Shown piece by piece: positions 1 through 24,871 of a stretch of DNA of 64,000 nt. Origin of the DNA: Portibacter lacus. GTDB taxonomy: Bacteria; Bacteroidota; Bacteroidia; Chitinophagales; Saprospiraceae. The DNA lies in NCBI RefSeq assembly GCF_021533215.1, contig NZ_JAJNKA010000002.1:237001-301000 (forward strand). The letters run 5' to 3'. A program made the position numbers and the translations under genes. Below the pieces are notes generated by a model that was not told the origin of the DNA, did not search any database, and was given only the letters and a program-made list of their open reading frames with translations. Numbering within the stretch: position 1 is the stretch's first letter; each line of letters opens with the position of its first letter.

Positions 1-89
1 ACATATGGTATAATTTTAAATGTATTCATTCCAATTATCGATAATTCAAAAATATAGAAAGAAGCCAAATTTGAATAAAATTATAAATT

Positions 90-722
90 ATGAAAACCAG
101 ATACACTTTTGTTTTACCATTCATTCTTGTTCTCCATTTTCTAAGTGCCCAAGAATTCACAAATTTCACTTCGCTCTCAATACATGCAGGAGTACAAAAT
201 CCAATAGAATTAGGACACCTTGATTTATATAACGTCAGTTATGGAGATTATTTCGAACCTGGCAATCTATTCGGGATTTCAATCAATAAAGATTGGGGAA
301 AAGCTGCCATTTCCTTTCAAGGCGAATACCTTTACAACCCTATGAATATAGGGAAGTCCAATAAGAACCTCGATCTACATAGTATTAAAATAGATTATAA
401 ATTTTGGTACAATTTCTTGAATCCAGCATCAAGAATGAAACTCAAAGCTGGTACAGGCCTAGGAGTTTTGGGTTTTAAATATCCAGAAAGATCTTATCCT
501 CCAAGGTTTGGACCTGACATAATAGACAATTACCATGTTTACGAAGCATATATTGAATTTTCGTTAGCCTACACAACTGCCCTTAATTTCACCTACAGAA
601 TAAACCATATGATATCCCTTAGTACAACAATAGGAAATGACTTCGTTTATAATTATGGCGATGAGCAAACGGTTCTACTTACCTCTTTTTCAGCCAGTAT
701 AAATTATACCATTTCCAAATAA
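90..722 (+). CDS. Exported outer-membrane barrel-like protein, function unknown
   Basis: This is a 210-residue protein with a clear signal peptide: a basic start, a hydrophobic stretch over residues 6-19 and a likely cut before Gln21. The mature part alternates aromatic/hydrophobic and polar residues, with many Gly, Tyr and Asn, and ends in short amphipathic strands. That pattern suggests a small outer-membrane beta-barrel or a related beta-rich envelope protein. No enzymatic motif is visible. It converges on the malic enzyme gene with about 20 bases between stop codons, so it is probably transcribed alone. The family is not recognised; the barrel call rests on composition and length only. 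Confidence 0.6.
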   Translation: MKTRYTFVLPFILVLHFLSAQEFTNFTSLSIHAGVQNPIELGHLDLYNVSYGDYFEPGNLFGISINKDWGKAAISFQGEYLYNPMNIGKSNKNLDLHSIKIDYKFWYNFLNPASRMKLKAGTGLGVLGFKYPERSYPPRFGPDIIDNYHVYEAYIEFSLAYTTALNFTYRINHMISLSTTIGNDFVYNYGDEQTVLLTSFSASINYTISK

Positions 723-741
723 TATAAGGGAGCCTCCAGCT

Positions 742-1938
742 CTACTTCTTATTATAAGCTGTGCTATCTTCTTCCGCAGCTTTCTTAACTGCAGCCGCTA
801 CTTTGCTTGCAACATCAAAATTTAACGAAGGTGGAATAACCATTTTCGAAAATGGGTATTCGATGCAATCAGCAATAGCGAAGGCGGCTGCCAATTTCAT
901 TTTCGGAGTAATTCTAACTGCTCTTGCATCCAAAGCTCCTCGGAATATTCCAGGAAAACCTAATACATTATTGATTTGATTCGGCATATCGCTTCTTCCT
1001 GTTCCTACGACGACTGCGCCTGCTTCATAAGCATCGCCAGGCCAGATTTCTGGAGTAGGGTTTGCAAGTGCAAACACGATAGGACTCTCCGCCATATTTC
1101 TGATGTCTACTTGACTTAGTATTTCACCTACAGAAACACCGATAAAAACATCTGCATTATGCATCGCATCCTTTAATGAACCTTCTTCATTATTCGGATT
1201 CGTATATTGTATCATTTCTTTCTTCGCGTCGTTAAGATCTTCACGATTTTTGTGAATGATGCCTTTACTATCACACATGATCACTTCTTTCGCAGTTATT
1301 ACATCCTCTTCATCTACGTGATCTGCGCTCTTAAGCAACTTAGCAATTGCAATTCCCGCTGCTCCAGCGCCATTAACGATAATTCGCATTTCTCTTATCG
1401 GCTTCTTAACCACTTTAGAAGCATTAATCAATGCTGCTAAAACCACGATGGCCGTTCCGTGTTGATCATCATGAAAAACAGGAATTCCTAAATCTTGTAA
1501 TGCATTTTCAATAATAAAGCTTCTAGGAGCCGAGATATCTTCTAAGTTAACCCCACCAAAAACTGGAGCAATCATCTTAACTGTTTCGATAATTTTATCT
1601 GCATCTTGAGAATCTACACAAATAGGAAAAGCATCAATACCCGCGAATCGCTTGAATAACATGGCCTTTCCTTCCATCACCGGAATTGCTGCTAATGGTC
1701 CGATATTTCCAAGCCCTAAGACTGCAGATCCATCAGAAACAATAGCTACGGTGTTCCCTTTTATCGTTAGGTCGTAAACCGCTTCCGGGTTCTTCTCAAT
1801 TTCTAAACATGGCCCAGCGACACCTGGAGAATAGACCATCGACAAATCTTCCTTACTTCTTACTTCGATCTTAGGAGTGACTTGAATTTTTCCTTTGTGC
1901 TTCGCGTGAAGCTTAATTGACTCTAAATTGTAATCCAT
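742..1938 (-). CDS. NAD(P)-dependent malic enzyme, short form
   Basis: The enzyme oxidatively decarboxylates malate to pyruvate and CO2 with reduction of NAD(P)+, linking the TCA cycle to pyruvate and NAD(P)H supply in the cytosol. The N-terminal malic domain is visible with MVYSPGVAGPC at residues 34-44, a Lys in EGKAML near residue 91 and FHDDQHGTA at 155-163. The Rossmann nucleotide-binding loop GAGAAG follows at 190-195. At 398 residues it corresponds to the bacterial malic domain pair without the phosphotransacetylase-like domain of MaeB. It lies 9 bases downstream of the helicase-nuclease gene and is probably co-transcribed with it. Cofactor preference cannot be read from the sequence. 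Confidence 0.93.
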   Translation of the reverse strand: MDYNLESIKLHAKHKGKIQVTPKIEVRSKEDLSMVYSPGVAGPCLEIEKNPEAVYDLTIKGNTVAIVSDGSAVLGLGNIGPLAAIPVMEGKAMLFKRFAGIDAFPICVDSQDADKIIETVKMIAPVFGGVNLEDISAPRSFIIENALQDLGIPVFHDDQHGTAIVVLAALINASKVVKKPIREMRIIVNGAGAAGIAIAKLLKSADHVDEEDVITAKEVIMCDSKGIIHKNREDLNDAKKEMIQYTNPNNEEGSLKDAMHNADVFIGVSVGEILSQVDIRNMAESPIVFALANPTPEIWPGDAYEAGAVVVGTGRSDMPNQINNVLGFPGIFRGALDARAVRITPKMKLAAAFAIADCIEYPFSKMVIPPSLNFDVASKVAAAVKKAAEEDSTAYNKK

Positions 1939-1947
1939 TGATTTTTA

Positions 1948-4900
1948 TTATCGTTCCTCTTCCTCAAAATCCTCAAGAGTGGTCTCTAAGGCAAAATTAT
2001 TATTCACAAAGTTACACCATTTACAATCATCTTCGTTACATCCCTTAGAAAATTCCTTATTCTTAATCTTTTGGTAAACTGAAGAGAGTTGTTCTCCTAC
2101 AAATACAATTTCAAAATCACTGACTTCAAATTCCGCTCTTTTGAATTTGTCATCATCAGGCTCCAGATAGTCCATCGTTCCTTTCCTCATCGGCTTTTCC
2201 ATCTTAGGATCAGCATTGAGTAATATTTGATAAAATACGATCTGCCTCCAGTAATCCCCACCTAAATCTTCATCACCTAATGAAGGTTTTAACTTGGGTC
2301 TAGAATTTGCATACTTTCCTGTTTTATAATCAGTTACCTCTATGTGATTCTGATAGATATCCACTCTGTCTAAAACCCCTTTAATAGGAACTCCATTGAA
2401 TTCCGTCAAATCCACTTTGTACTCCACTTTATAATGATGAGGCTTCGACCATTCCCCCACATATTCTGTATAATATGCCTCAAGCGTCCTCTTTCCTAAT
2501 TCTAATAAGTCTGTATATTCTTTCAGTGTATAATGAGATCTAGTTCTATCCATTCCTTTTCCGAAAAAAGCCTGCATATCTTGAACAGGTGGTATTCGTC
2601 TTTCAGGATCTTCCTCTATCTTAATAAAAAATTGCTCAAGAGCAAAGTGCATTGCTTTCCCAAATCCCATATTAGCATTCCTAGCCAGTGGAACTCTTAG
2701 AACACTTTCGAAGTAAAAAGTCAGTGGACATTTCAGATATTTATTCAGATTGGTAACACTTAGACTAAAATTCTCTAAAATCCGATCGACCAAATTAGCA
2801 TCTATTAATTCAATAGGAGATTCTCTATATTTCATTAAATCTGCCTTATACTTAAGAATCTCTTCATTCCCTATATCACATTTCACAAAGTCATCAACGT
2901 GTTCTATTTCTGTTATAAATCTAGATGGCTCTAAGACTTTCCCTTCGTCTGATGCTTCAGCATAACTTATGGATAAATAATTCTTAGCTCTAGTCATCGC
3001 GACAAAAAACAATCTTCGATCATCTTGTACATCGTTCACGTTCGAATCAGGAACCCAATCTTCTGGCAATGTAAACCTGCTGTTGTTACCTCTTTTTGAC
3101 TCCCAGTTTTTACTTTCATTCCTAATCATATAAACCCGATCGAATTCCAATCCTTTCGATCCGTGGGCCGTTAGAAAATTCACACCTTTCTCATTTGAAA
3201 TGATCTTCTCAAAAGGCAATCTAATATCACTATCCTTCATGAGGTCAATGTATTCTAGCAAGTCGGTAAGATTGAGATCTGGTTTCTTGACACTTTCCGC
3301 TTTGAGGAAATCAAAAAATGTATTTACTAATTGTAGCCGCCATACTCGATCCTGAGAATTCATCACAGAATTAATAATATTCCCTTCCGTCAATATTCTT
3401 TCGAATAAAACCTGAAGCGTCATGTTTTTCGAGTAACCTATCCAAGCTTGCATCATTTCATAAACAGTATGCATCTTTTCAGGGTCAGAAACTCCTATTT
3501 TCTTAAGTGTTTCTAATGAGGTAAGAACGCCATCCCAGCTTCTATCATCTTCTTCATCATCTGTTCTTCTAGAACAATAAACAGCAACCTTCCCAACATC
3601 CCTCGCTCGAAGCCCAAAGTACTCATAATGCAAAATCTCGAAAAGCAAGTTATTCGCCGTGTCCAAGAAAGTACCTTCTTGCTCTATATAACTTAAAATA
3701 TTTAAAATCCGCTGAACTTCCGGCGTATCCAGAACATTCAATCTTCGCTTTATATTTAATGGGATTTCATGCAACTCTAGATACTTGACAATGTTTTCTG
3801 CAAAGATGTGCTTTGTATAAATGATTGCTACATCAGATAAATCTTCGCCATTTTGATGAAGTTTAATGATTTCATTTGCGACAAAGATTTCTTCTTGTGT
3901 ATGATTCGGAAAAACCTGAATATGAGGCTTAATCTGGATGTTTTTATCGTTTCGACTTTCTATTAACGCTTTCTTGATTTGCCCATCGAATTCATTGACC
4001 AATCTTTTCGAGTTGTATTCGATTAGCTTCGTAGCACTGTCTAATATGAGTTGGGATGATCGATAGTTGTTTTCAAGAACGACGACATTCGGGTTATACT
4101 TGCTTGCGAATTCTTTAATGTTATCCATATTCGCACCTTGGAAACGGTAGATAGACTGGTCATCATCACCTACCACGAATAAATTAGGATCCTCCCAGAA
4201 AGATGCTAGTAGATTTATTAATTTATTCTGAGATCCATTGGTGTCTTGGTATTCATCGACTAATATGTATTGAAATCTTTCTTGATATTCTAAAAGCAAT
4301 TCAGGTTTTTCTTCAAATTTCTGAATCACCCACAAGATCATATCATTGTAATCAAACCTTTCTTTAGCTGCTAGCAAACGCTCATACTTCTTAAACTCAT
4401 TTAACCCTGCAATCAGCTTTTTTAATTTACCTTCAGCTAGTCTAATTTTATTCCAATTTTGATCTCCTTTTGCATTTTTCCCACTTGCTCTTTTGTATTG
4501 AAAATCAATATTATCTGGATCATTGATTTTCTCGATTTCTCCCTCACAAAAATGGATTAATTCTTGCACGTCCCATCCTTCTTGCTTTATCGTAGAAAAC
4601 AAATCCAGTAATGGTTTTCGCTCATAATAGATATTTCCTTTGAACCGCTTTAGCACGTGATCAGGTGAAAAATCATCAATAATCTTCTTTAAAATTTCTA
4701 CTTGCTCTAACTCTGAAACCGCCTGCAAATCATAGAATCCTCCGAAAAATTCAATATTCTCCTGAATGATCTTAGAGCAGAAAGCATGGAAGGTATAGAT
4801 CGATACATTATAGGCTTCAGGTCCGATAAATTGAAGAAGTCTTTTCCTCATAGCCACTGCACCGGCATCTGTAAAGGTTAGTGCCAAAATATTAGCCGGA

Positions 4901-5100
4901 TTCGTATCCGTCTCTTGAAGAATATAGCCTATTCTCGCTGCTAGAAGTTGGGTTTTCCCAGTTCCTGGACCAGCGATAACCAATACCGCTCCATCAGTTT
5001 GCTGAACAGCTGCCCGCTGAGCATTATTCAATGTTGCAAGTGCCTTTTTGAAATTAGACTGATAGATTGACTTTGGGTCTTGTGAAGATGGTGTCGACAT
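1948..5100 (-). CDS. UvrD/PcrA-type ATP-dependent helicase fused to a RecB-like Fe-S nuclease
   Basis: This 1050-residue cytosolic protein should unwind and cut DNA during repair. Superfamily 1 helicase motifs are seen in order: Walker A GPGTGKT at 44-50, DEYQDT at 282-287, GDDDQSIYRFQGA near 312, NYRSS, LTAHGSKGLEFD and RRLFFVAMTRAKN. The C-terminal 240 residues carry a PD-(D/E)XK nuclease: GVLDRVD followed by EVTDYKTGK. A Cys in LKCPLTFYFE before the nuclease core and three Cys in GCNEDDCKWC after it match the four-Cys Fe-S staple known from AddB-type nucleases. The start is supported by the Walker A position. No AddB/RecC-like partner is next to it; the partner downstream is the malic enzyme. 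Role in repair is family knowledge, not seen here. Confidence 0.9.
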   Translation of the reverse strand: MSTPSSQDPKSIYQSNFKKALATLNNAQRAAVQQTDGAVLVIAGPGTGKTQLLAARIGYILQETDTNPANILALTFTDAGAVAMRKRLLQFIGPEAYNVSIYTFHAFCSKIIQENIEFFGGFYDLQAVSELEQVEILKKIIDDFSPDHVLKRFKGNIYYERKPLLDLFSTIKQEGWDVQELIHFCEGEIEKINDPDNIDFQYKRASGKNAKGDQNWNKIRLAEGKLKKLIAGLNEFKKYERLLAAKERFDYNDMILWVIQKFEEKPELLLEYQERFQYILVDEYQDTNGSQNKLINLLASFWEDPNLFVVGDDDQSIYRFQGANMDNIKEFASKYNPNVVVLENNYRSSQLILDSATKLIEYNSKRLVNEFDGQIKKALIESRNDKNIQIKPHIQVFPNHTQEEIFVANEIIKLHQNGEDLSDVAIIYTKHIFAENIVKYLELHEIPLNIKRRLNVLDTPEVQRILNILSYIEQEGTFLDTANNLLFEILHYEYFGLRARDVGKVAVYCSRRTDDEEDDRSWDGVLTSLETLKKIGVSDPEKMHTVYEMMQAWIGYSKNMTLQVLFERILTEGNIINSVMNSQDRVWRLQLVNTFFDFLKAESVKKPDLNLTDLLEYIDLMKDSDIRLPFEKIISNEKGVNFLTAHGSKGLEFDRVYMIRNESKNWESKRGNNSRFTLPEDWVPDSNVNDVQDDRRLFFVAMTRAKNYLSISYAEASDEGKVLEPSRFITEIEHVDDFVKCDIGNEEILKYKADLMKYRESPIELIDANLVDRILENFSLSVTNLNKYLKCPLTFYFESVLRVPLARNANMGFGKAMHFALEQFFIKIEEDPERRIPPVQDMQAFFGKGMDRTRSHYTLKEYTDLLELGKRTLEAYYTEYVGEWSKPHHYKVEYKVDLTEFNGVPIKGVLDRVDIYQNHIEVTDYKTGKYANSRPKLKPSLGDEDLGGDYWRQIVFYQILLNADPKMEKPMRKGTMDYLEPDDDKFKRAEFEVSDFEIVFVGEQLSSVYQKIKNKEFSKGCNEDDCKWCNFVNNNFALETTLEDFEEEER

Positions 5101-5313
5101 ATTCTAGTATAGTTTTAAAATATAAGTTGCAAGGTATAAAAAATGATAATGAATTTGCTTTCAGAAGGATTCTGGATTACAGTAATAAAACTTCAAACTA
5201 CTTTTTTACCTTTTACAGGTCACATTTCTCACTTTACTCGCTCCTTTGAATATAAACCTTTAACTTCATTAAACCAGATCAGCCATTGATCATAACCTTT
5301 TAAATAAACTAAT

Positions 5314-6036
5314 ATGACTTATTTAGCACTCTTTATAGGTTTAGTAATTGGATTTCTAATTGCGGCTTATTTATTTCAAAAATCAAAAACACCCAACCAT
5401 CTTATGAATAATGACTTGACTCCCGAAGAGATTGAGAAGATTATGAAAGGATTAACTGATGAAAATAGTGAATACTATATCTACAAACCTGGTACTAAGC
5501 TAAAAAGACGATTCGAAAGTATAATGGATTTTGTTTTATCAGACTTAAACAGTGAAACAAAAAAAATCATCCTCGACGATCCGATTAATTTTAATACAGC
5601 TATTGCATTAATCGCGATGGGTGAAACAGATAGGAATCCAGATTTCAAGCCTAGTCCAGAATGGATAGAAAAACAAAGATCTAGAATCCAAAAAGAAGAA
5701 AGTTATACTTTCCCAGAATTAGGTGCTAAAAAATGCCCTCCACCAGAAGGTGGTGGGCATGAAGCATTCGATATAGAAAGAATGGAAGCACCATGGTGGA
5801 CTTGGTTTTTAAACAAGTACATTAATGTCTTGCATAATTACGATACAGATATAATAGGAGAACTTAATAATAACAGATTAATTAAGCCATCTATTAAAAA
5901 TCGATTCTTCACCCAATTCGAAAAACCTTCAGATATCGGTGATGATGGAGCTCAATTTGCTTTAATAATCAAGCTAACCAACACAAAAACTAAAGAAGAA
6001 ATTCTGATTAAATACTATTTAGCTTTCAAGGATTAA
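5314..6036 (+). CDS. Membrane-anchored protein of unknown function upstream of CHAT gene
   Basis: The 240-residue product begins with one hydrophobic segment (about residues 3-20) followed by a hydrophilic body, so it is probably an N-terminally anchored membrane protein. The body contains a short CPPPEGGGHE stretch near residue 145 and a WWTWF aromatic cluster near 162. I recognise no family. The stop is 18 bases before the start of the TPR-CHAT gene on the same strand, so the two are probably one operon and may work together. A 12-bp-arm inverted repeat lies inside the gene at 5733-5760. Confidence 0.65.
   Translation: MTYLALFIGLVIGFLIAAYLFQKSKTPNHLMNNDLTPEEIEKIMKGLTDENSEYYIYKPGTKLKRRFESIMDFVLSDLNSETKKIILDDPINFNTAIALIAMGETDRNPDFKPSPEWIEKQRSRIQKEESYTFPELGAKKCPPPEGGGHEAFDIERMEAPWWTWFLNKYINVLHNYDTDIIGELNNNRLIKPSIKNRFFTQFEKPSDIGDDGAQFALIIKLTNTKTKEEILIKYYLAFKD
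5733..5760. repeat. GC-rich imperfect hairpin inside the 5314-6036 gene
   Basis: Two 12-base arms (5733-5744 and 5749-5760) are reverse complements apart from one T-T mismatch, with a 4-base AGAA loop. It is strikingly GC-rich for its surroundings and encodes a CPPPEGGGHE stretch. No T-run follows, so it is not a simple terminator. It may only be a by-product of the Pro/Gly codons. Confidence 0.5.
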
Positions 6037-6054
6037 TAGTATTTTAACCTTCAC

Positions 6055-8706
6055 ATGGTTAGATTGTCTTGTACATATTTTTTTATTCTACTTACCGTTT
6101 TACTTTCTGGTCAAGATTGTGGAGGTTATTGTAATAACATTGCCTTTGCTAAAAATTTTGAAATCGTAAATCCTGAACGCATTTTAGAATGTAATTGTAC
6201 TGACAACGTCGCTTTAAAACTTGATACATTCTTCAGTGTTGCTGTTCAAGAAGAAGATATAATTTCCCAGAAATTGATCCTTAATCAAATGGAAAATGTA
6301 TTAAGTTTTAATAGAGACAATCCGACCACAAGCACTAATTTTTCACAATATATATTCAATACTGGCTTATACAATAAGCACATCAACAACCTCGATCTTG
6401 CAGAGAAAAAATACAATGAAGTTGTTTCCAATTTGAAAAATTCCTATAAAAATGATCCTCAAAGAGCTGAGCTACTCAGTCTAGCATTACAGCAACTTGC
6501 AGAGATTTCAACATCAAGATCAAATTTTCAAAAATCAATTAATCATCTTGAATATTCAATTGACCTAGAAAAGAAAAGAGTAGAAGGGACAAGTCAAAGA
6601 CCGGTTACATACTCAATGTTAAGTAGAATAGGTGTTAACTACTCTATGATGGGAAAGGGAGAGGAAGCATTAAGATATTTTAGGCTTGGTACAGAACCAA
6701 TGAAAGAAGCGGTCTCCCATTTATCACCTGAAAGAATCAAAAGTTTAGCTTATATTTTCATCGGCTATTTCAATCTTGAATTAGAAGAAACGCTCAAATT
6801 AAAAAAGAACAAAGAATCATATGAGTTACTAAATATCATTTCTAAGATTCAACAACCTAATCATCCTAGAAACAAGGCTATTAATCTGCTTAAAGCTAAA
6901 TATTTCACTAACTCTAACAATCAAGACTCCGCTTCTTATTATTACAAACTTAGTAAAGACAGCATCTTCGCCTCCGAAAACAATACGACGGAGAAACTAA
7001 ATTACTACACCAATTATGCAATATTCTGCGAAACATTCAAGAGCCCCGAAGACGCACTTCTATCATTAGATACAGCTATTTTTTATGGTGACCACCTTCT
7101 AGCAACAAGTACGAAATGGTCAAGGAACATGATCCATGCTAAATCAGAGAAGATTCGGTTGTTGCACCAATTAGGCAGAAGCAATGAAGCATTAAATCTT
7201 ATTTCTCTATTTGCTAAAGAGATTAACCAACGACTCTCTGGGGCCGTAATTTTCGAAGATCATATTAATCACATTAATGAGTTCTACCCTATTTTTGAAA
7301 TTGGACTTAACATCATCGAAAAGGAGTTTCCTGAAAAGATACATCTCGCATTCGATATCATCGAATGTACTAAGTCATTAAGTCTATACAAATCTTCTCT
7401 GCTTACTCAAAATTCAAAGAACTCCAATCAAGATAGTTTAATCTTAAAATTCAAGACTCTTAATGCATTAGCTAGCCAATATTTACTGAATCAAGCTAGA
7501 GGAGATTCTACGATAGAGACCAGCAACAATCTTTATGATACTCATAAGATGATTGCAGAGATTAAAGGGAAACTATTAGAAGAAAGTCCTTTCCCAAAAC
7601 CATTATCTATTTCTGATTATCAAAGCAACATTGACCGAAATAAAACACATATTTTAAGTTTTTCAGGAGCAGATCATTACTACTTTCTGAGCATAGAATC
7701 TAATAAGACTAAACTAGTCAAAGTTGAAAATACAGAATTGGATAGTCTATTGAAAAAGTATATTACTGAAATTTCAACCTTCCAAAACAATCTGTTTCAA
7801 GAAAGCTCAGAGAAAATAGGTGTTTTGCTAAATAAGGTCTTAAGTGATACTAAGAAAGAAATCATCTTTTCTGGAGACGGCTACCTTGATTTAATTCCTA
7901 TCGAAAGTATCATCATGCCAGATGGAAATTTCTTATTAAACAAAAAGTGCATTTCTTATTCTCCATCGGCTAAAATCCAACATTTATTCAATACAGGATT
8001 GCCATCTGAAAAATTAAAAACGGCGATTTTCAGACCAAGTTTTAATGATGATGTCATGCCGCTAGAATATGCTGAAAAAGAATGTGCTGCCATATTGAAA
8101 TTAATGAATGGAGAGCTTTTCGAAAATGGTGCTGCATCCAAGGATTTATTTTTAACGGAAAGTGAGCAATTCGATATTCTACATCTTGCAACTCATGCGA
8201 AATCTATCAATGATGATCCTTCGAAATCGTATATCAATTTCACAGATTCTAAGCTGTATTTTAATGAGATAAGATCTATGATTCTAGGAACAGAGCTCGT
8301 TTGTCTTTCTGCGTGTGAAACAAATTCAGGACTTAACTTTAATGGGGAAGGTGTTCAGAGTTTAGCAAGAAATTTTATTGCCTCAGGAGCTAAGTCTGTC
8401 GTTTCTAGTCTTTGGCAGATTTCAGATCAAACAACATCGGAGATCACGATATCATTCTACAAATATCTAAGCAAAGGATATTCTAAAGCAGAAGCATTAC
8501 AAAAATCAAAAATTGATTTTCTAGAGCATCATCCCGACGATGGAATGCATCCCTATTATTGGGCGGGGTTGGTTCTTACAGGAAATTCAGACGCGATAAC
8601 TAGTAATAATAAGTGGAAATATTTACTGGGCGGTTCTGTTCTAATATTTTTTATAGGACTTACAGCTTTCAAGCAGTTCACTAAAATAAGTAAGAAAGCT
8701 TCTTAA
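6055..8706 (+). CDS. Exported TPR-CHAT domain peptidase-like protein
   Basis: The product is 883 residues: a signal peptide (1-19, before QDCGGYC), a helical repeat region rich in TPR-like pairs (about 80-430), then a C-terminal CHAT domain (about 540-845) and a single transmembrane segment near 857-875 with a short basic tail. CHAT is a caspase-like cysteine peptidase fold; the expected dyad is present, His714 in HLATHA and Cys754 in CLSACETNSG, followed by GEGVQSLARNF and the conserved HPYYWAGLVLTG ending. The layout predicts a protein in the periplasm anchored by its C-terminal helix. It follows the unknown membrane protein by 18 bases and converges on a sigma/anti-sigma-like pair. Its substrate is unknown. 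Confidence 0.88.
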   Translation: MVRLSCTYFFILLTVLLSGQDCGGYCNNIAFAKNFEIVNPERILECNCTDNVALKLDTFFSVAVQEEDIISQKLILNQMENVLSFNRDNPTTSTNFSQYIFNTGLYNKHINNLDLAEKKYNEVVSNLKNSYKNDPQRAELLSLALQQLAEISTSRSNFQKSINHLEYSIDLEKKRVEGTSQRPVTYSMLSRIGVNYSMMGKGEEALRYFRLGTEPMKEAVSHLSPERIKSLAYIFIGYFNLELEETLKLKKNKESYELLNIISKIQQPNHPRNKAINLLKAKYFTNSNNQDSASYYYKLSKDSIFASENNTTEKLNYYTNYAIFCETFKSPEDALLSLDTAIFYGDHLLATSTKWSRNMIHAKSEKIRLLHQLGRSNEALNLISLFAKEINQRLSGAVIFEDHINHINEFYPIFEIGLNIIEKEFPEKIHLAFDIIECTKSLSLYKSSLLTQNSKNSNQDSLILKFKTLNALASQYLLNQARGDSTIETSNNLYDTHKMIAEIKGKLLEESPFPKPLSISDYQSNIDRNKTHILSFSGADHYYFLSIESNKTKLVKVENTELDSLLKKYITEISTFQNNLFQESSEKIGVLLNKVLSDTKKEIIFSGDGYLDLIPIESIIMPDGNFLLNKKCISYSPSAKIQHLFNTGLPSEKLKTAIFRPSFNDDVMPLEYAEKECAAILKLMNGELFENGAASKDLFLTESEQFDILHLATHAKSINDDPSKSYINFTDSKLYFNEIRSMILGTELVCLSACETNSGLNFNGEGVQSLARNFIASGAKSVVSSLWQISDQTTSEITISFYKYLSKGYSKAEALQKSKIDFLEHHPDDGMHPYYWAGLVLTGNSDAITSNNKWKYLLGGSVLIFFIGLTAFKQFTKISKKAS

Positions 8707-8723
8707 TATTGAATGGTCACAAT

Positions 8724-9311
8724 TTATTCGGGCAATGCAATCCAAGTCTTAATCTTCTGAACTCGTTTATATTTTATATGGTCTTCTGATAGACTTGGCA
8801 GGTAGAAAAGCGCACTATCTCTTTCGCCTGCATTCAGGAACACCTCCGTTAACCAATAATTCCGGGTCGTTAAGTCTAAGGTATTTATGCTTTTTATTTG
8901 TGATGTCGCTTTATCAAGATCATCAGAATTTTTCCATTCTGCTATTGCTGAAGATAGAGAATCCATGCTTCCTCGCGTAATGGGCCAAATAGGCTCTGTG
9001 TATACTTCAGCGAAAAGCTCATTATTTCCTTGGCTACTTGCACTAAAAAAATAGATCGCTAAAGCACCCACGCCAAGTGCGACAATTAGCCAGATCCATT
9101 TCGATAATGAAAAGCTTCTTCGACTTTCATTTTCTAATGTTTCACGCATATCTATTTCCAATAAACCCTTAGATAGCTCTCGAGCTAGTAAGTAGTTATC
9201 GTAACGTTCTTTCAGCATTTTATTGGTAGCAAGTTCACTTTCGAATGCCACCAAACTATTACCGCTTAGCTCGCCATCTAAATATGCTTGTATTTTTTCG
9301 TCAGTTGTCAT
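8724..9311 (-). CDS. Anti-sigma-like single-pass membrane protein
   Basis: The 195-residue protein has a cytosolic N-terminal part (about 1-70) starting with DEKIQAYLDGELSG, which resembles the first helix of anti-sigma factors. One transmembrane helix (about 72-90, WIWLIVALGVGALAIYFF) and an extracytoplasmic helical domain of about 100 residues follow. The zinc-binding HxxxCxxC motif of classical ZAS anti-sigma factors is absent. It overlaps the preceding sigma-factor gene by 4 bases (ATGA type), which implies translational coupling and a partner role. It ends 18 bases from the stop of the convergent CHAT gene. The anti-sigma role is inferred from context and topology. Confidence 0.65.
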   Translation of the reverse strand: MTTDEKIQAYLDGELSGNSLVAFESELATNKMLKERYDNYLLARELSKGLLEIDMRETLENESRRSFSLSKWIWLIVALGVGALAIYFFSASSQGNNELFAEVYTEPIWPITRGSMDSLSSAIAEWKNSDDLDKATSQIKSINTLDLTTRNYWLTEVFLNAGERDSALFYLPSLSEDHIKYKRVQKIKTWIALPE

Positions 9312-9904
9312 TTTCTTTTTAATAGCGATTTTAAATGCGGCCTCTCAGAAACATAATCTACCAGCTCCTTTAGACACTGATATTTCTTTTTCCTTGCCAT
9401 CATATCACTTTTATAATTCATAGCATCTGCTATTTCTTTCATATTGTAGGAATTAGCCCATAAGCTTAAAACTTCCCTACAATTCTTCCCTAACTTATCT
9501 AATAACTCTTCGACTAGCTGCTTTTGTTCGAAATCAATCATGAGCTTTTCTGGAACTTCATAATCTATCCACATCTCTTGGTGCTCTTCTAATTCTACCG
9601 TACTCAACTTTCCTTTTCTCTCCTTAATGAAAGTATTCTTTCCTATCACTATGATGTAATTACGAAGATCAGAAGTCAATTCGAAATCAGGTCTCCTAAT
9701 CACAGTAGACGCAAAAAGGATGAGAGAGTTATTAAAGATAGAATCAAAATTAGATGCTTGCCAACCTTGATTTCTAATCATTTTCTTGAAGCTATTCCTC
9801 AATTTCTGATCATGATATAGGTATACTAATGCTTCATCTCTGCCAGCCTTGCCCGACCGAATAAGTTCTAATAAATTATCTTTATCAAGCGGGCGTCCAC
9901 TCAT
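9308..9904 (-). CDS. Sigma-70 family RNA polymerase sigma factor (ECF-like, divergent)
   Basis: The 198-residue protein has the two-part layout of ECF sigma factors: a region-2-like half (about 15-95, with RNYIIVIGKNTFIKERK) and a region-4 helix-turn-helix half (about 125-185, with LLDKLGKNCREVLSLWANSYNMKEIADAMNYKS). The sequence is divergent and region 2 is weakly conserved, as in many sigma factors tied to CHAT/TPR proteins in large Bacteroidota genomes. It overlaps the one-TM anti-sigma-like gene by 4 bases. The target promoters are not apparent from the window. Confidence 0.78.
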   Translation of the reverse strand: MSGRPLDKDNLLELIRSGKAGRDEALVYLYHDQKLRNSFKKMIRNQGWQASNFDSIFNNSLILFASTVIRRPDFELTSDLRNYIIVIGKNTFIKERKGKLSTVELEEHQEMWIDYEVPEKLMIDFEQKQLVEELLDKLGKNCREVLSLWANSYNMKEIADAMNYKSDMMARKKKYQCLKELVDYVSERPHLKSLLKRK

Positions 9905-9949
9905 TAGGATTCAATTTGGGTAGATTATATGACCTCTAAATTAAAAAAA

Positions 9950-11239
9950 CTACTTATAAACCATCTTAAACCTCGATAAATCAGGTATTTTATTCCTCGT
10001 TCTTCCCAACTCATACTCGTAAAACTTCCTTCCCAAGGCCGCTAAAAATGGAATTCCTACTTCATTGTACTCATACTGATCATCATTAAAGACCTGATTA
10101 GAATTGACATGAATCGTTGCTGCCAAGAAAAACTCAATGTTATTTTTAAAATCTACGATATATGCACAGTCTGTCAGATACCCATAGGCTCCACCTATTT
10201 TATTAAAGATCCGAATGTGTTCTGGAATACTTTCTTTTGTATCTCCAAACATAAAATACTTAACACTTGAGTCGAAAATTTGCTCCCCTTCATATATTGG
10301 CGCCAATGACTCTCCCGGATACATAGACATACTCTTATACAATAACTGATAATCCTCCGCCCGCAAATCAAGTTTCCCATCTTGCATAATCACAGAAATT
10401 AGGCTTTCTTGCAAATCTCTTAAAGCAATAAAATTTTTATTACTGAAATCAAATGGCTCACTAACTAGATCATTGTTTCCATTGATATAACCTCTCCCCT
10501 TCGAGGTATTTTTTAATTTCTCAAAACTCCACGCCTCCATATATTGAGCCGGCTGACTATAAACGGTACGTTCTCCATCGAAAAACCTAAATGAATTCGT
10601 ATGTCTATTTTCTTCTTCATTAAAGGCAGGAGCACTTAATCTATGGACAATCCTAGAATTTCGGAAAATACCTTTAGACCTCATTTCCTTATTAATTGCT
10701 TCAGGACCCACAAATTCATACAACCGGTTATAAGCATCATTATCACTTACTAAAAACAGTTTGTGTATATAATGACCGATACTTGCACGGAAATCTATCG
10801 ATGATGAATCATATAAAACCGCTGTCTGAGGTGGAACCCGCTCCGCATCTATTTCGAGTGCTGTATTAAAATCAACATCTATATTTTGCTTGTATAACTG
10901 ATTCAATTTCTCTAATGCGAGAAATGCAACGGGCATTTTTGCTGAGGACGCTGGATAGAAATATGCACTTGAGTCTACACGAAATTCATAAGGAACTAGT
11001 TCAGCAACGCCATCTTCATCTCGATTAATTTGAACATAGCGAATTTGAACCTCATATTTTTCTGCATGTTCGAATACTTCATTCAAAAGTGAGTCTCCCT
11101 CGATATTCAGAAAATCAATTTCCCCAAGATCATTTTTTTCAGAACAAGCGCCTAGTAAAACAAAAAATCCAACGCACCAAATGAACATCCACTTGACCAT
11201 CTGGTACGTCTTAGAATCTTTTATTTTGTTACATCTCAT
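9950..11239 (-). CDS. Serine hydrolase lipoprotein of the class A beta-lactamase fold
   Basis: The product resembles class A beta-lactamase-type serine hydrolases. The motifs are visible: SSAK with nucleophile Ser98 and Lys101, SDN at 165-167 and KIGG near 346 in place of KTG. A lipoprotein signal ending LLGAC (Cys32) predicts anchoring to a membrane outside the cytosol. The first Met at 11239 gives a long basic n-region; an internal ATG at 11200 would give a more usual lipoprotein signal. It starts 8 bases after the ThuA-dehydrogenase gene and is probably co-transcribed. The family includes penicillin-binding enzymes and esterases as well as beta-lactamases, so antibiotic resistance should not be assumed. 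Confidence 0.82.
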   Translation of the reverse strand: MRCNKIKDSKTYQMVKWMFIWCVGFFVLLGACSEKNDLGEIDFLNIEGDSLLNEVFEHAEKYEVQIRYVQINRDEDGVAELVPYEFRVDSSAYFYPASSAKMPVAFLALEKLNQLYKQNIDVDFNTALEIDAERVPPQTAVLYDSSSIDFRASIGHYIHKLFLVSDNDAYNRLYEFVGPEAINKEMRSKGIFRNSRIVHRLSAPAFNEEENRHTNSFRFFDGERTVYSQPAQYMEAWSFEKLKNTSKGRGYINGNNDLVSEPFDFSNKNFIALRDLQESLISVIMQDGKLDLRAEDYQLLYKSMSMYPGESLAPIYEGEQIFDSSVKYFMFGDTKESIPEHIRIFNKIGGAYGYLTDCAYIVDFKNNIEFFLAATIHVNSNQVFNDDQYEYNEVGIPFLAALGRKFYEYELGRTRNKIPDLSRFKMVYK

Positions 11240-11247
11240 TAAGCTGA

Positions 11248-14200
11248 TTATTTCTTAAATCTTAATTCCTGCAGTGCAAATGCTGGTTGATTAGGGTTAT
11301 TACTTTTAAAATGAACATACAAATCATGTACTCCTTTTGCACCACTGATTTTTAATACATCCGCATTAAAAGCCGTCTTTTCTCCTTTTTTAATTTCAAG
11401 TGAACCGATAGACTTTCCATTCACACCATCTAGCTTCAGGTCCAAAGATCCACCAGCCATTTTACCATGATCTAAAAAGGTCAATAACTCAATAGATTGT
11501 ATTTCCGTAAAATCCAATTTTTTATATAAAACATGGGACTGATCATCCGCCACTAATACGGAAACATCCTTCTTTAAATCTGAGTAATCTTTTGCTTTTA
11601 ATTGCTCTCTTTTCACATCCTCCTTCGCATCGTAATCCATCGCCGAAAGATTAGAGTTTCTAAAAACCAAGGTCTCTGTTGTAGAAATAGGATCTGTTTT
11701 CGGAGCGCCATTATCTACATAGGAAGCATTCATTATAAAAACTCCACCCTTCTTTTTACCTTCTGGAATTTCAAGTTCATAACTACCTGCTATAGGCATC
11801 GCATCGGTATCTGTTTTTTCTTTCAAGTCTAAGATGTACTCTACCATTGACAAAACTTCTGCTGAAGATAATTGTGGGTGAGCTGCCATGGCTTGTTCTC
11901 CCCAGACGCCACCACCACCTTCGATAATTCTCTGCGAAAGATAACCAGGCGCTTTTTTATCATCTCTATACTTATTAGCAACGTCCATGTAAGAAGGTCC
12001 TATAGATTTAGCATTATCTTTATGACAAGAGTAGCAATCTGAATTTTTCATCGCTTTCATTCCAGGGTGTGAAGCAATAGCACTCATGTGTCCCATTGCA
12101 ATTTCATTTCGATCATAGCCATTTTCTAAGTAATCAATATTTATCGCAACCGCTGAAGGATCTATTCCCTCGCCGATCTTTCCATCTTCTTTATCCGCTA
12201 CACTCACTTTATAGTTAATCGGCTCGTTTTCGAAGTAGAAACTCTTATTTCCTTTTATGTCAATGTTTACTTTCGGTTGATCATTGCCAACCATTAATGG
12301 AATTTCTTTAGAACTAATACTGCCTGCCTTATCCTTAACTTCCAGTTTCACAATGTAGTTTCCTGGCTCAGTAAACGTATGTTCTAATTTGGCATTTTTA
12401 CCGATCACTTCATCACCTACTTTCCATGTGTATGAAATTTTGTCCTTATCATAATCCAAACTCTTACCAGCGTCAAAACTAGCTGTCATCGGCGCAGCGC
12501 CTATCGTTTGGTCAATTTCAACTTCTGGAACTGGAGGTCTATTTCCACCATTAAACTTAAGATGCACTAATCGAGCATCAGCGTTCATAGAAAACCATGC
12601 AGTCCCATATTCTAATAGGTATATATTACCATCATTATTAATCACGATATCTGTCGGATTAGAAAATTTATGATTCGGGAGGAATCGCTCCATCGAAACA
12701 AAGTCTCCATCTTCATTCATCGTCGTTGCCATAAACCATCCTCTTATCCAATCATAAGTGAATAACTTACCATCATAGTACTTAGGAAGTTTGTGTTCCG
12801 ACTCTGGATAATCATCATAATGATAAACGAAACCAGCCATGGCATTTCTTCCTCCAGCACCGACAAGTGGGAATTCCTCAGATTCTCCGTAAGGATAATA
12901 GATAAATGCTTTATTCGCTTTCGGAAGGACTTTTTTCCCAGTGTTAAACTTTGAATTATTAATAGGTCTTTCAGGGTTAAATTCTTCTCCTGTGGTTTTA
13001 CGACCAAAATCGTACGCTCGATAAGGGATATTATCAGCGATGAATAATGGCCAGCCAAAGTATCCAGCTTCCCGTGCTTGATTCACTTCATCATATCCTC
13101 GAGGTCCTCTATTTTCATTGTCTTTACCTGCATCTGGACCTACATCTCCCCAGTATAAAAAATCAGTTTTAGGGTCAATGAAAAAACGGAATGGATTTCG
13201 GCAACCCATTACATATATTTCCGCCTTCGTACTGTCTGTAGCAGGAAACAAATTTCCCTCTGGGATAGTATATGTCCCATCATCTTGCGGCGTTATTCTT
13301 AAAATCCCTCCCCTGAAATCATTGGTACTTGAAGATGATCTTCTCGCATCAAAAGGAGCTCTACCTTCTCGATCATCGCTAGGCGAAAAGCCATTAGATT
13401 CGAAAGGATTCGTATCGTCACCCGCTGAAATGAACAAGTTCCCATGACTATCGAACTCTAAACCACCCGCAGAATGACAGCACTTCTCTCTTTGAACGGG
13501 GATCTTTATAATAATCTTCTCCGACGAGAGATCAATCTTTCCATCTTTAAATTCAAATCTAGAAACATACTGTGTCCACTCCTCGATTTTAGGACTATAA
13601 AATAGATAGACCCACTTGTTTTCTTCAAAATTTGGATCTAATGTTATTCCTAATAAACCGTCTTCGAATTCGGTGTGGACATCGATCTGATTAATTGTTT
13701 CTGTCGTTTTTTTTTTGCTATCGTAGTAACGAACCTCTCCTTTTCTCTGAATGTACATGATGTCATTATTCGGCATCATCACTAATTCCATCGGTTCGTC
13801 TAGATTCATTTCTAAGACCTCTTTTTGAAACCGGTTTGTCGCTGGAGCAACCGCCACACCATTATAGTTAGGTCGATTTTTACTTACCGACAGAATTCCA
13901 CCTAAGATGTGCTTTAGGAAATTTTCTTCTGAGAAACTGGCTTCCGTATGACCTAATCCAGTGTAGAACATATTATCTCTAGTCCAAGCAATTGGATGAT
14001 TTTCTCCATTTGTCCCTCCTTCATATGTTGTTTCATCAAGGTTAAGTAAAACCGTCATCTCAGGATTCAAGTTCTTAAAATTATAATATTCATCATCTCG
14101 ATTCCAGACATCAGGTAGATGTGCGCACGATAGGTGTGTATCATTTTTCTTCTGAATATCTGCATTTTTGATCCCTGGTGGGTGTCCATTAAAATATCCT

Positions 14201-14580
14201 CCCACTAATTCCCCATACCATGGCCATTTATACTCCGTATCTGTTGCAGCATGAATTCCTACGAATCCACCTCCAGCTTGATAGTATCTCATAAATTCAT
14301 ATTGCTGCTCATCGTTAAAAATATCCCCAGTCGTACTTAAGAAAATAACTGCATTGTACTGAGAAAGTGAATCTTCGTTTATGATATCTGAATCCTCGGA
14401 ATGATCCACTATGAATCCATTTTCCTTCCCTAACTTCCTTATTGCCTCCACTCCTGGCTCTATAGATTTATGGCGATAGCCTTCGGTTTTAGAAAATACT
14501 AAGACTCTAGTTTCTTTTTTCGCAGTATCACATGACACTAGAAAGAATAGGAGTCCAACAAGCAACAAAAAATTTTTCAT
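11248..14580 (-). CDS. Multidomain lipoprotein: ThuA, PQQ-type sugar dehydrogenase, PKD, cytochrome c, CBM-like
   Basis: The 1110-residue protein starts with a lipoprotein signal (Cys17 in FLVSCDTAKK). Domains follow in order. A ThuA-like amidotransferase fold is at about 25-235 (FSKTEGYRHKSI, GGGFVGIHAATDTEY). A glucose/sorbosone-dehydrogenase-type beta-propeller is at about 240-680 (DGLLGITLDPNF, CCHSAGGLEFD, GDVGPDAG). A PKD domain (TASFDAGKSLDYDKD) is at about 690-770. A c-type cytochrome with the haem motif CYSCH lies near 855, and a C-terminal carbohydrate-binding-like beta-sandwich occupies about 985-1110. It should oxidise a sugar or polyol in the periplasm and pass electrons to its own haem. 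This architecture is known in Bacteroidota; the substrate is not. Confidence 0.88.
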   Translation of the reverse strand: MKNFLLLVGLLFFLVSCDTAKKETRVLVFSKTEGYRHKSIEPGVEAIRKLGKENGFIVDHSEDSDIINEDSLSQYNAVIFLSTTGDIFNDEQQYEFMRYYQAGGGFVGIHAATDTEYKWPWYGELVGGYFNGHPPGIKNADIQKKNDTHLSCAHLPDVWNRDDEYYNFKNLNPEMTVLLNLDETTYEGGTNGENHPIAWTRDNMFYTGLGHTEASFSEENFLKHILGGILSVSKNRPNYNGVAVAPATNRFQKEVLEMNLDEPMELVMMPNNDIMYIQRKGEVRYYDSKKKTTETINQIDVHTEFEDGLLGITLDPNFEENKWVYLFYSPKIEEWTQYVSRFEFKDGKIDLSSEKIIIKIPVQREKCCHSAGGLEFDSHGNLFISAGDDTNPFESNGFSPSDDREGRAPFDARRSSSSTNDFRGGILRITPQDDGTYTIPEGNLFPATDSTKAEIYVMGCRNPFRFFIDPKTDFLYWGDVGPDAGKDNENRGPRGYDEVNQAREAGYFGWPLFIADNIPYRAYDFGRKTTGEEFNPERPINNSKFNTGKKVLPKANKAFIYYPYGESEEFPLVGAGGRNAMAGFVYHYDDYPESEHKLPKYYDGKLFTYDWIRGWFMATTMNEDGDFVSMERFLPNHKFSNPTDIVINNDGNIYLLEYGTAWFSMNADARLVHLKFNGGNRPPVPEVEIDQTIGAAPMTASFDAGKSLDYDKDKISYTWKVGDEVIGKNAKLEHTFTEPGNYIVKLEVKDKAGSISSKEIPLMVGNDQPKVNIDIKGNKSFYFENEPINYKVSVADKEDGKIGEGIDPSAVAINIDYLENGYDRNEIAMGHMSAIASHPGMKAMKNSDCYSCHKDNAKSIGPSYMDVANKYRDDKKAPGYLSQRIIEGGGGVWGEQAMAAHPQLSSAEVLSMVEYILDLKEKTDTDAMPIAGSYELEIPEGKKKGGVFIMNASYVDNGAPKTDPISTTETLVFRNSNLSAMDYDAKEDVKREQLKAKDYSDLKKDVSVLVADDQSHVLYKKLDFTEIQSIELLTFLDHGKMAGGSLDLKLDGVNGKSIGSLEIKKGEKTAFNADVLKISGAKGVHDLYVHFKSNNPNQPAFALQELRFKK

Positions 14581-24271: not shown

Positions 24272-24871
24272 GTGATATTATTATTAAATCCCTTATTGTC
24301 AAATATTTCAGATGCTTCTACGGATGAAGTTCTGGTAGAGAAATATTTGAACACACAAAGAGGGGCATATTTTGACATATTATATAAAAGGTATTCCGCA
24401 AAGGTTTATGCTAGAAGTATTTCAATGTTGAAAGACGCAGAATTAGCTCAAGATGCTGTTCAGGAAATTTTTATTAAAGTCCTAACAAGCATCTCTAAAT
24501 TTCAGGGCAAGTCTAAGTTTTCATCTTGGTTATACTCTATTACATATAACTATTGTATTGATTTAATTCGAAAGAATAAGAAAATTAAAACAGTAGCTAT
24601 GGATAAGCTTGGCGAAATAGAAGATATGCATGGAGATATAGATGACAAAGAATTAATGGAAACTAAATTCGAACAGTTAAAAGTCGTCTTAAATGAAATG
24701 CCCGCGCAAGACAAAACTATTTTGCTCATGAAATACCAAGATAATATGTCCATTAGAGAAATAGGCGAATTAAATGGTAAATCAGAAAGTGCAACTAAAA
24801 TGCAAATTAAAAGAGCGAAGCAAAAGTTTATGGTTTTAAGAACCGATTTGTTTCCTGCAGAGATATATTAA
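24272..24871 (+). CDS. ECF sigma factor
   Basis: The 199-residue protein is a standard two-domain sigma factor. Region 2 shows YFDILYKRYSAKVYARSISM, ELAQDAVQEIFIKV and KFSSWLYSITYNYCIDLIRK. Region 4 shows VLNEMPAQDKTILLMKYQD, then MSIREIGELNGKSESATK. The start is GTG at 24272; no ATG fits better. Its stop is immediately followed by the ATG of a 62-residue gene and then an MscS-type channel gene. The set suggests a sigma factor tied to membrane tension or osmotic stress, which is inference. Confidence 0.93.
   Translation: MILLLNPLLSNISDASTDEVLVEKYLNTQRGAYFDILYKRYSAKVYARSISMLKDAELAQDAVQEIFIKVLTSISKFQGKSKFSSWLYSITYNYCIDLIRKNKKIKTVAMDKLGEIEDMHGDIDDKELMETKFEQLKVVLNEMPAQDKTILLMKYQDNMSIREIGELNGKSESATKMQIKRAKQKFMVLRTDLFPAEIY

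Follow-up and report, generated by a model that had tools for sequence, protein, structure and literature searches.

Four open reading frames lie at positions 5314-9904 of the window, by which is meant the whole 64,000-nucleotide stretch of Portibacter lacus DNA that was analysed, and all four were confirmed in the ORF list of the source genome (6.3 Mb in 43 contigs). Two forward-strand genes, for an accessory protein and a TPR-CHAT protease, face an ECF sigma gene and an anti-sigma-like gene on the reverse strand (Table 1). The first-pass annotation had read them as a convergent CHAT/sigma/anti-sigma module, and the module is real; the ORFs, an intact catalytic dyad and the topology signals were all found. 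The 4-base overlap it gave for the sigma and anti-sigma genes was borne out (9308-9311), and the gap between the facing stops, given as 18 bases, is 17 bases long (8707-8723).

Table 1. Genes and sites at the locus, in window coordinates
Feature	Position	Strand	Basis
GGTCAC, possible -35-like element before accessory/CHAT operon	5218..5223	+	L096 operon has it too
Accessory protein of 240 aa with a single TM helix at the N-terminus	5314..6036	+	ORF; nothing in Pfam above cut-off
TPR-CHAT protease of 883 aa, with a hydrophobic N-terminus, TPR helices, the CHAT domain and a membrane anchor at the C-terminus	6055..8706	+	ORF, Pfam, topology, fold
CHAT domain as aligned	7627..8601	+	alignment; Pfam CHAT residues 599-844
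Glu676 codon, proposed S1-pocket residue	8080..8082	+	column most associated with partner's linker residue
His714 codon, catalytic dyad	8194..8196	+	invariant
Ser752 codon, two residues before Cys754; proposed S1-pocket residue	8308..8310	+	second best column
Cys754 codon, catalytic dyad	8314..8316	+	invariant
Asp791 codon, proposed S1-pocket residue	8425..8427	+	third best column
C-terminal membrane helix, residues 853-882	8611..8700	+	topology analysis
Anti-sigma-like protein of 195 aa, with N-terminal helices, a TM helix (70-91), a linker (about 92-115) and an outer TPR-like domain (116-192)	8724..9311	-	ORF, Pfam, model
Codon of Arg113, the proposed P1 residue, with the proposed cut just before Gly114	8973..8975	-	Arg in 53/58 relatives, low-confidence linker, covariation
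Divergent ECF sigma factor, 198 aa	9308..9904	-	ORF, TIGR02937 match, paralog alignment
GGTCAT, possible -35-like element before sigma operon	9929..9934	-	same offset (-30) in L096

By its domain score and dyad, the 883-aa protein is assigned to the CHAT peptidase family. The Pfam CHAT model (PF12770) matches it with an E-value of 4.3e-48 and 164.7 bits, against a cut-off of 24, and the TPR matches ahead of this domain are weak. The dyad residues His714 and Cys754, described earlier as intact, are invariant in the genome's 7/7 CHATs and in 99/99 linked CHATs. The hydrophobic N-terminus is joined by a C-terminal membrane helix that was absent from the first-pass annotation, followed by a Lys-rich tail. 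In fold searches, the predicted CHAT model (pLDDT 81) matched Csx29 (8eey_B) at Z 34.5, separase at Z 28.5 over 298 residues at 2.6 A, and DdvA at Z 22.9.

The anti-sigma gene follows and overlaps the sigma gene and encodes one TM helix, as in RseA-like one-TM anti-sigma factors. The RseA_N match of the 195-aa protein is weak (E 0.0032, 18.4 bits against a cut-off of 24), and in its model helices 3-64 precede the membrane helix and a linker of pLDDT 51-69 separates the latter from the TPR-like helices. With this model as query, Foldseek returned weak TPR-like matches, none of them at E 0.001. A zinc-type anti-sigma was considered and rejected, as zf-HC2 matched at 0.01 in only 2 of 49 members. 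The predicted topology of both proteins upholds the earlier placement of the CHAT domain and the anti-sigma outer domain on the same side of the membrane. The 198-aa sigma matches TIGR02937 at E 1.5e-6, with 28 bits against a model cut-off of 42.9, and aligns with its paralogs, three of which score 49.6-55 bits. A second ECF-type sigma ORF is present in the window (24272-24871, +). At L092 (4267-5628), close to CHAT genes, a single 453-aa ORF joins a sigma to an anti-sigma and has TTRS in its linker. Positive residues follow the membrane helix of the accessory protein (5314-6036), whose main part may face the cytoplasm, unlike the exported-looking accessories found elsewhere. Anti-phage defence was rejected as a role, with no PADLOC family among the four proteins, and no cas gene was seen by eye among the neighbours (window 1-14580).

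Conservation, linkage and promoter elements

The same-genus locus L096 retains all four genes, with identities of 53% for the sigma, 37% for CHAT, 35% for the anti-sigma and 27% (partial) for the accessory protein; three large flanking proteins reach 61-72% in the same comparison, above the four module proteins. The question of whether the four genes stay together in relatives, raised by the first-pass annotation, has a divided answer: L096 keeps all four and the sigma/anti-sigma/CHAT core recurs, whereas orientation and the accessory gene vary. A convergent layout as an essential property was rejected, as the 57 pairs with a called CHAT, which take in the source genome's own loci, comprise 18 convergent pairs with no gene between, 34 divergent pairs and 5 on one strand. 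The accessory gene was likewise rejected as a fixed fourth part, the 240-aa protein matching only its L096 counterpart and other CHAT-upstream genes being unrelated. A gene lies close upstream of CHAT in 64/101 pairs and in some is the anti-sigma gene itself. The gene preceding CHAT encodes a subtilase in L031 (5645-7354) and L216 (11740-14259), the latter with a T9SS sorting tail, and beta-helix or PKD proteins are encoded before CHAT at other loci.

Within the source genome, 5/7 CHAT genes adjoin an ECF sigma gene and then a one-TM TPR anti-sigma gene, and 2/7 do not. Since the whole 6.3-Mb genome holds only 54 sigma-type matches, this adjacency is more than chance would give. Among the 80 named Bacteroidota loci in the matches listed for the five linked CHAT domains as queries, a set biased by the query, 53 hold a sigma/anti-sigma pair, including L045 (CHAT frame uncalled by the profile) and L025 (6.7 kb away). 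In 60 regions from relatives that were picked on the CHAT match alone and cover part of the CHAT matches (8 for the 45 in G035, partial matches skipped), a sigma/anti-sigma pair lies within 6 kb of 25/62 CHAT genes. Where a hydropathy rule called a membrane segment at the C-terminus of CHAT, linkage was seen in 19/28 cases, compared to 6/34 for CHATs without one (Fisher p 8e-5, lineage effects not removed). At L066 (7123-18033), four CHAT genes stand in tandem beside one sigma/anti-sigma pair.

The TPR anti-sigma family is common, not universal, among genomes of the class (38/149 at 1e-18), and its members number 24 in G191 and 16 in G189 at 1e-30. Independent occurrence of the genes in relatives, which the first-pass annotation had held to count against a functional link, was found in part: the core recurs, yet 22/40 class-sample anti-sigma loci are without a linked CHAT (19 after three masked genes were found), and 18/40 have one (21/40 counting the masked genes). 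In L223-L225, the anti-sigma gene is hidden under a longer overlapping ORF in the ORF list and was revealed by protein search alone. The association of CHAT with sigma/anti-sigma pairs is widespread in Bacteroidota.

In a first look for paired promoter boxes nothing rose above shuffles, and single hexamers did exceed them. GGTAAC precedes 18/85 CHAT operons, compared to 2.0 in shuffles, and 10/99 sigma genes, compared to 1.5. This hexamer stands before both operons in L012, from the source genome, and in L098, from a same-genus genome; the present locus and L096 carry a GGTCA form. The longer element GGTAAC-N15-19-GATAT was found before 8/88 CHAT operons, with a maximum of 0 in 40 shuffles, and before only 2/99 sigma genes. 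These GGTAAC-type elements indicate that CHAT is probably in the sigma's regulon, and they suggest that the sigma may drive both its own and the CHAT operon in a positive loop. A scan of the genome for C5-type promoters gave 2 places, compared to 1 in a reversed control, and therefore no regulon was read from it.

Covariation of the linker residue and CHAT positions

In the column of Arg113, 53/58 anti-sigmas carry Arg, in a count made without two matches (a fragment in L090 and the fused ORF of L092); some members of the family carry Met or Leu, mostly followed by Gly or Ser. In the predicted structure, this residue falls between the membrane helix and the TPR domain, in a low-confidence stretch. 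According to PMC9729208, separase cuts after EXXR, and Csx29 has Lys in place of separase's Arg-binding Asp. Because the CHAT fold matches both of these proteins, Arg113 is a possible P1 residue. If CHAT cuts at the linker, its S1 pocket should follow the linker residue, and this expectation was tested by covariation.

Among the CHAT columns, 676, 752, 798 and 791 ranked highest in the initial 75 pairs. The full set of 115 pairs was made up of 92 of 101 retained pairs and 23 added ones; the linker site could not be read in pairs of L048, L125, L127, L132 (two), L144 and L153, which were dropped together with L049 (Arg-Gly upstream of a Gln in the column) and the more distant of the L141 pairs, and L056 and L097, which are the same contig, were counted twice. 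E676 is present in 93/95 pairs with an Arg or Lys site and in 1/20 with Met, Leu or Gln, S752 in 94/95 and 3/20, and D791 in 94/95 and 5/20, respectively. These are the top three of 322 CHAT columns (p 1.7e-18 for 676, 2e-16 for 752 and 1e-13 for 791), followed by the next column at 2e-7. Only three of the 115 pairs break the rule at 676 (L246, L259 and L143).

In addition, two new samples were fetched by anti-sigma search and not by CHAT, each of 40 regions covering part of the matches. The first had E676 in 13/13 Arg pairs and 0/5 Met/Leu pairs. The second had it in 11/11 and 0/7 under strict column calls, and in 12/13 and 1/10 with the addition of five sites read by eye (L246, L256, L259, L265 and L266), which the strict counts exclude; for L223-L225, the CHAT residues were known before the linker site was read. 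CHATs without a linked pair carry ESD at 676/752/791 in 59/80 cases, and as E676 is thus also the usual state of unlinked CHATs, only departures from it are informative. We take three places to belong to S1 in caspase-fold proteases, namely Cys minus 2 (752), the beginning of helix one (676) and the turn that follows the Cys helix (791), and on this homology with caspases, rather than on coordinates, we propose that the three positions may line the S1 pocket. A structure-sequence search with a full-length profile was headed by TPR proteins and did not show the Csx29 residue at 676.

Anti-sigmas away from CHAT were also read at this site. Of ten genomes in which all fetched anti-sigma loci were unlinked, seven carry Arg (six) or Met (one) there by eye, and all seven hold CHAT genes elsewhere. 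The other three (G095, G111 and G128) gave no CHAT match and had neither Arg nor Met at the site by eye, and they make a weak control because the Leu-Ser of G128 is like some CHAT-linked sites and G111 has Lys-His. The source genome holds three unlinked anti-sigmas with Arg (two) or Lys (one), which could be cut in trans, and a fourth match, in L187, of another build. In contig C12 of the source genome, L186 holds a sigma/anti-sigma pair (6330-7563) whose site is Lys-Gly. The CHAT gene of L013 lies about 9 kb from this pair; that CHAT is without a membrane tail, and the L186 sigma resembles the 198-aa sigma.

The first-pass annotation had left two routes open, in which CHAT cuts the outer domain of the anti-sigma or its output is sensed by that domain. 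Gene linkage, same-side topology and the covariation of the linker residue with 676, 752 and 791 favour direct cutting, and the cut itself is a prediction. CHAT might instead be an output, with the sigma freed by another protease acting on the anti-sigma and then turning on a CHAT that acts on some other envelope protein. Such an arrangement would fit the GGTAAC-type elements before CHAT operons, would fit the linkage taken alone, and agrees with the many anti-sigmas of the family that are not beside CHAT. It offers no reason, however, for a linker residue that tracks the top three of 322 CHAT columns, nor for linked CHATs being the membrane-tailed ones, and we regard it as unlikely.

The covariation could also reflect shared ancestry, if a few old module lineages differ in both proteins without any contact between residue and pocket. 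Within five genomes, 29/31 modules match the rule, and shuffling partners inside genomes gives p 8.5e-5; inheritance of modules as wholes remains as a shared cause of this match. On a CHAT-domain tree built without the three columns, there are 6 site-class changes and 6 independent pairs on the best tree, including the isolated switch of L079, but well-supported branches force only 2 changes and leave 2 independent pairs, with which a sign test is without power and cannot reach 0.05. A search for Met-type genomes near G001 and G004 yielded no further CHAT genome. Against shared ancestry, all other CHAT columns have the same ancestry, and the three that lead, far ahead of the fourth, are Cys minus 2 together with two positions attributed to S1. 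We regard this explanation as somewhat less probable than a CHAT acting as output. Least probable, at a very small chance, is contact between the TPR domains of CHAT and anti-sigma, by which CHAT would regulate release through binding, the linker residue being structural; both proteins do carry TPR-type domains on the same membrane side, and DdvA joins TPR/CHAT and anti-sigma in one protein, but the dyad is intact in every linked CHAT and the conserved residue sits in a low-confidence linker and may be Arg, Lys, Met or Leu.

Related systems and a proposed envelope switch

RseA is a one-TM anti-sigma factor, and outer-membrane proteins are sensed by DegS, a serine protease with a PDZ domain. 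The proposed module resembles RseA/DegS/RseP in that a first cut of the anti-sigma would be followed by further proteolysis, and differs in its TPR cysteine protease and in the TPR outer domain of its anti-sigma. In the sigma-E response, the anti-sigma is cut first by one protease and then by RseP and ClpXP, according to PMC10028731. The same source describes Csx29, a TPR-CHAT protein, as cutting a sigma inhibitor, with a proposed role in relieving an ECF sigma in CASP. The CASP/Craspase system (Csx29, Csx30 and CASP-sigma) shares with the locus a TPR-CHAT protease, matched in fold at Z 34.5, and, on the reading proposed here, an inhibitor of an ECF sigma. In contrast, CASP is RNA-activated through Cas7-11 and serves CRISPR defence. 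Its protease is soluble and works with Cas7-11 in a CRISPR locus, whereas here protease and putative inhibitor both carry membrane segments, the protease having a hydrophobic N-terminus and a C-terminal membrane helix, and no cas gene was seen next to them.

DdvA of Myxococcus xanthus (sigma DdvS) is like the present CHAT by fold and sequence; its deposited entry gives it as a transmembrane anti-sigma factor, and the sequence file calls it a CHAT-domain protein. It is one chain joining TPR/CHAT and anti-sigma, whereas the locus has two separate genes. Its inactivating signal was described in 2015 as not known (PMC4374960), and the literature search found no paper on its structure. CHAT, subtilase and carboxypeptidase genes have been noted beside ECF54 sigmas (PMC8999054), where the role is proposed for sigmas without an anti-sigma, unlike the present module, which is defined by its TPR anti-sigma. 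HetF, a namesake of CHAT, can cut PatU3 (PMC12288457). Separase has the same protease fold as CHAT, and neither separase nor HetF has a sigma partner, both acting elsewhere in the cell. PMC8195603 mentions a caspase/EACC2 neighbourhood that includes a TPR protein and an ECF sigma, and this appears to be of another build. A search of open-access papers, with bioRxiv and most subscription journals outside its scope, brought up none whose entry describes a module of CHAT, ECF sigma and TPR anti-sigma; CASP and the ECF54 remark came nearest.

Taking together the gene linkage, the topology signals, the intact dyad, the fold, the conserved linker residue and its co-change with three CHAT positions, we think it likely that the locus encodes a cell-envelope switch in which a protease gates the sigma factor. 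The best reading of the sequences has CHAT as the putative site-1 protease and Arg113 as P1, in an RseA/DegS-like switch with a separase/Csx29-like enzyme. The course of events that we infer, from sigma binding and signal through the cut and a second proteolysis step to the promoters, would begin with the cytoplasmic N-terminal helices of the 195-aa protein holding the ECF sigma at the inner membrane. The TPR-CHAT protein would be exported, held by its C-terminal anchor at the outer face of this membrane, and would remain inactive until a signal reaches its TPR part. Active CHAT would then cut the anti-sigma linker after Arg113, between membrane helix and TPR domain, with Glu676, Ser752 and Asp791 among the residues of the pocket that takes up Arg113. 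General proteases would clear away the stub, and the freed sigma would transcribe its own operon and the CHAT operon. An M50/RseP-type site-2 protease is encoded in the genome (444-aa frame, E 5.7e-54), and as M50 is present in 14/14 control genomes it gives weak support for regulated intramembrane proteolysis.

Beyond this locus, we lean towards the view that Bacteroidota hold widespread, insulated caspase-sigma circuits, built of matched CHAT/anti-sigma pairs (one site and three pocket residues), with many per genome and an input protein for each; the number per genome is based on the 24 TPR-family anti-sigmas (E 1e-30) in G191. CHAT peptidases are common and, to our knowledge, mostly without a known substrate. 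Here sequence comparison predicts the substrate, the cut position and the pocket residues, and both later samples bore out the pairing rule. If this reading is true, a large share of Bacteroidota CHAT peptidases would gain a natural role with a specificity readable from sequence, and a separase/caspase-fold protease would join the enzymes that start the destruction of anti-sigma factors. The CASP design, known from CRISPR, would then have a counterpart outside CRISPR that is widespread and works in the cell envelope, with naturally matched protease/substrate pairs that could serve separate signalling channels.
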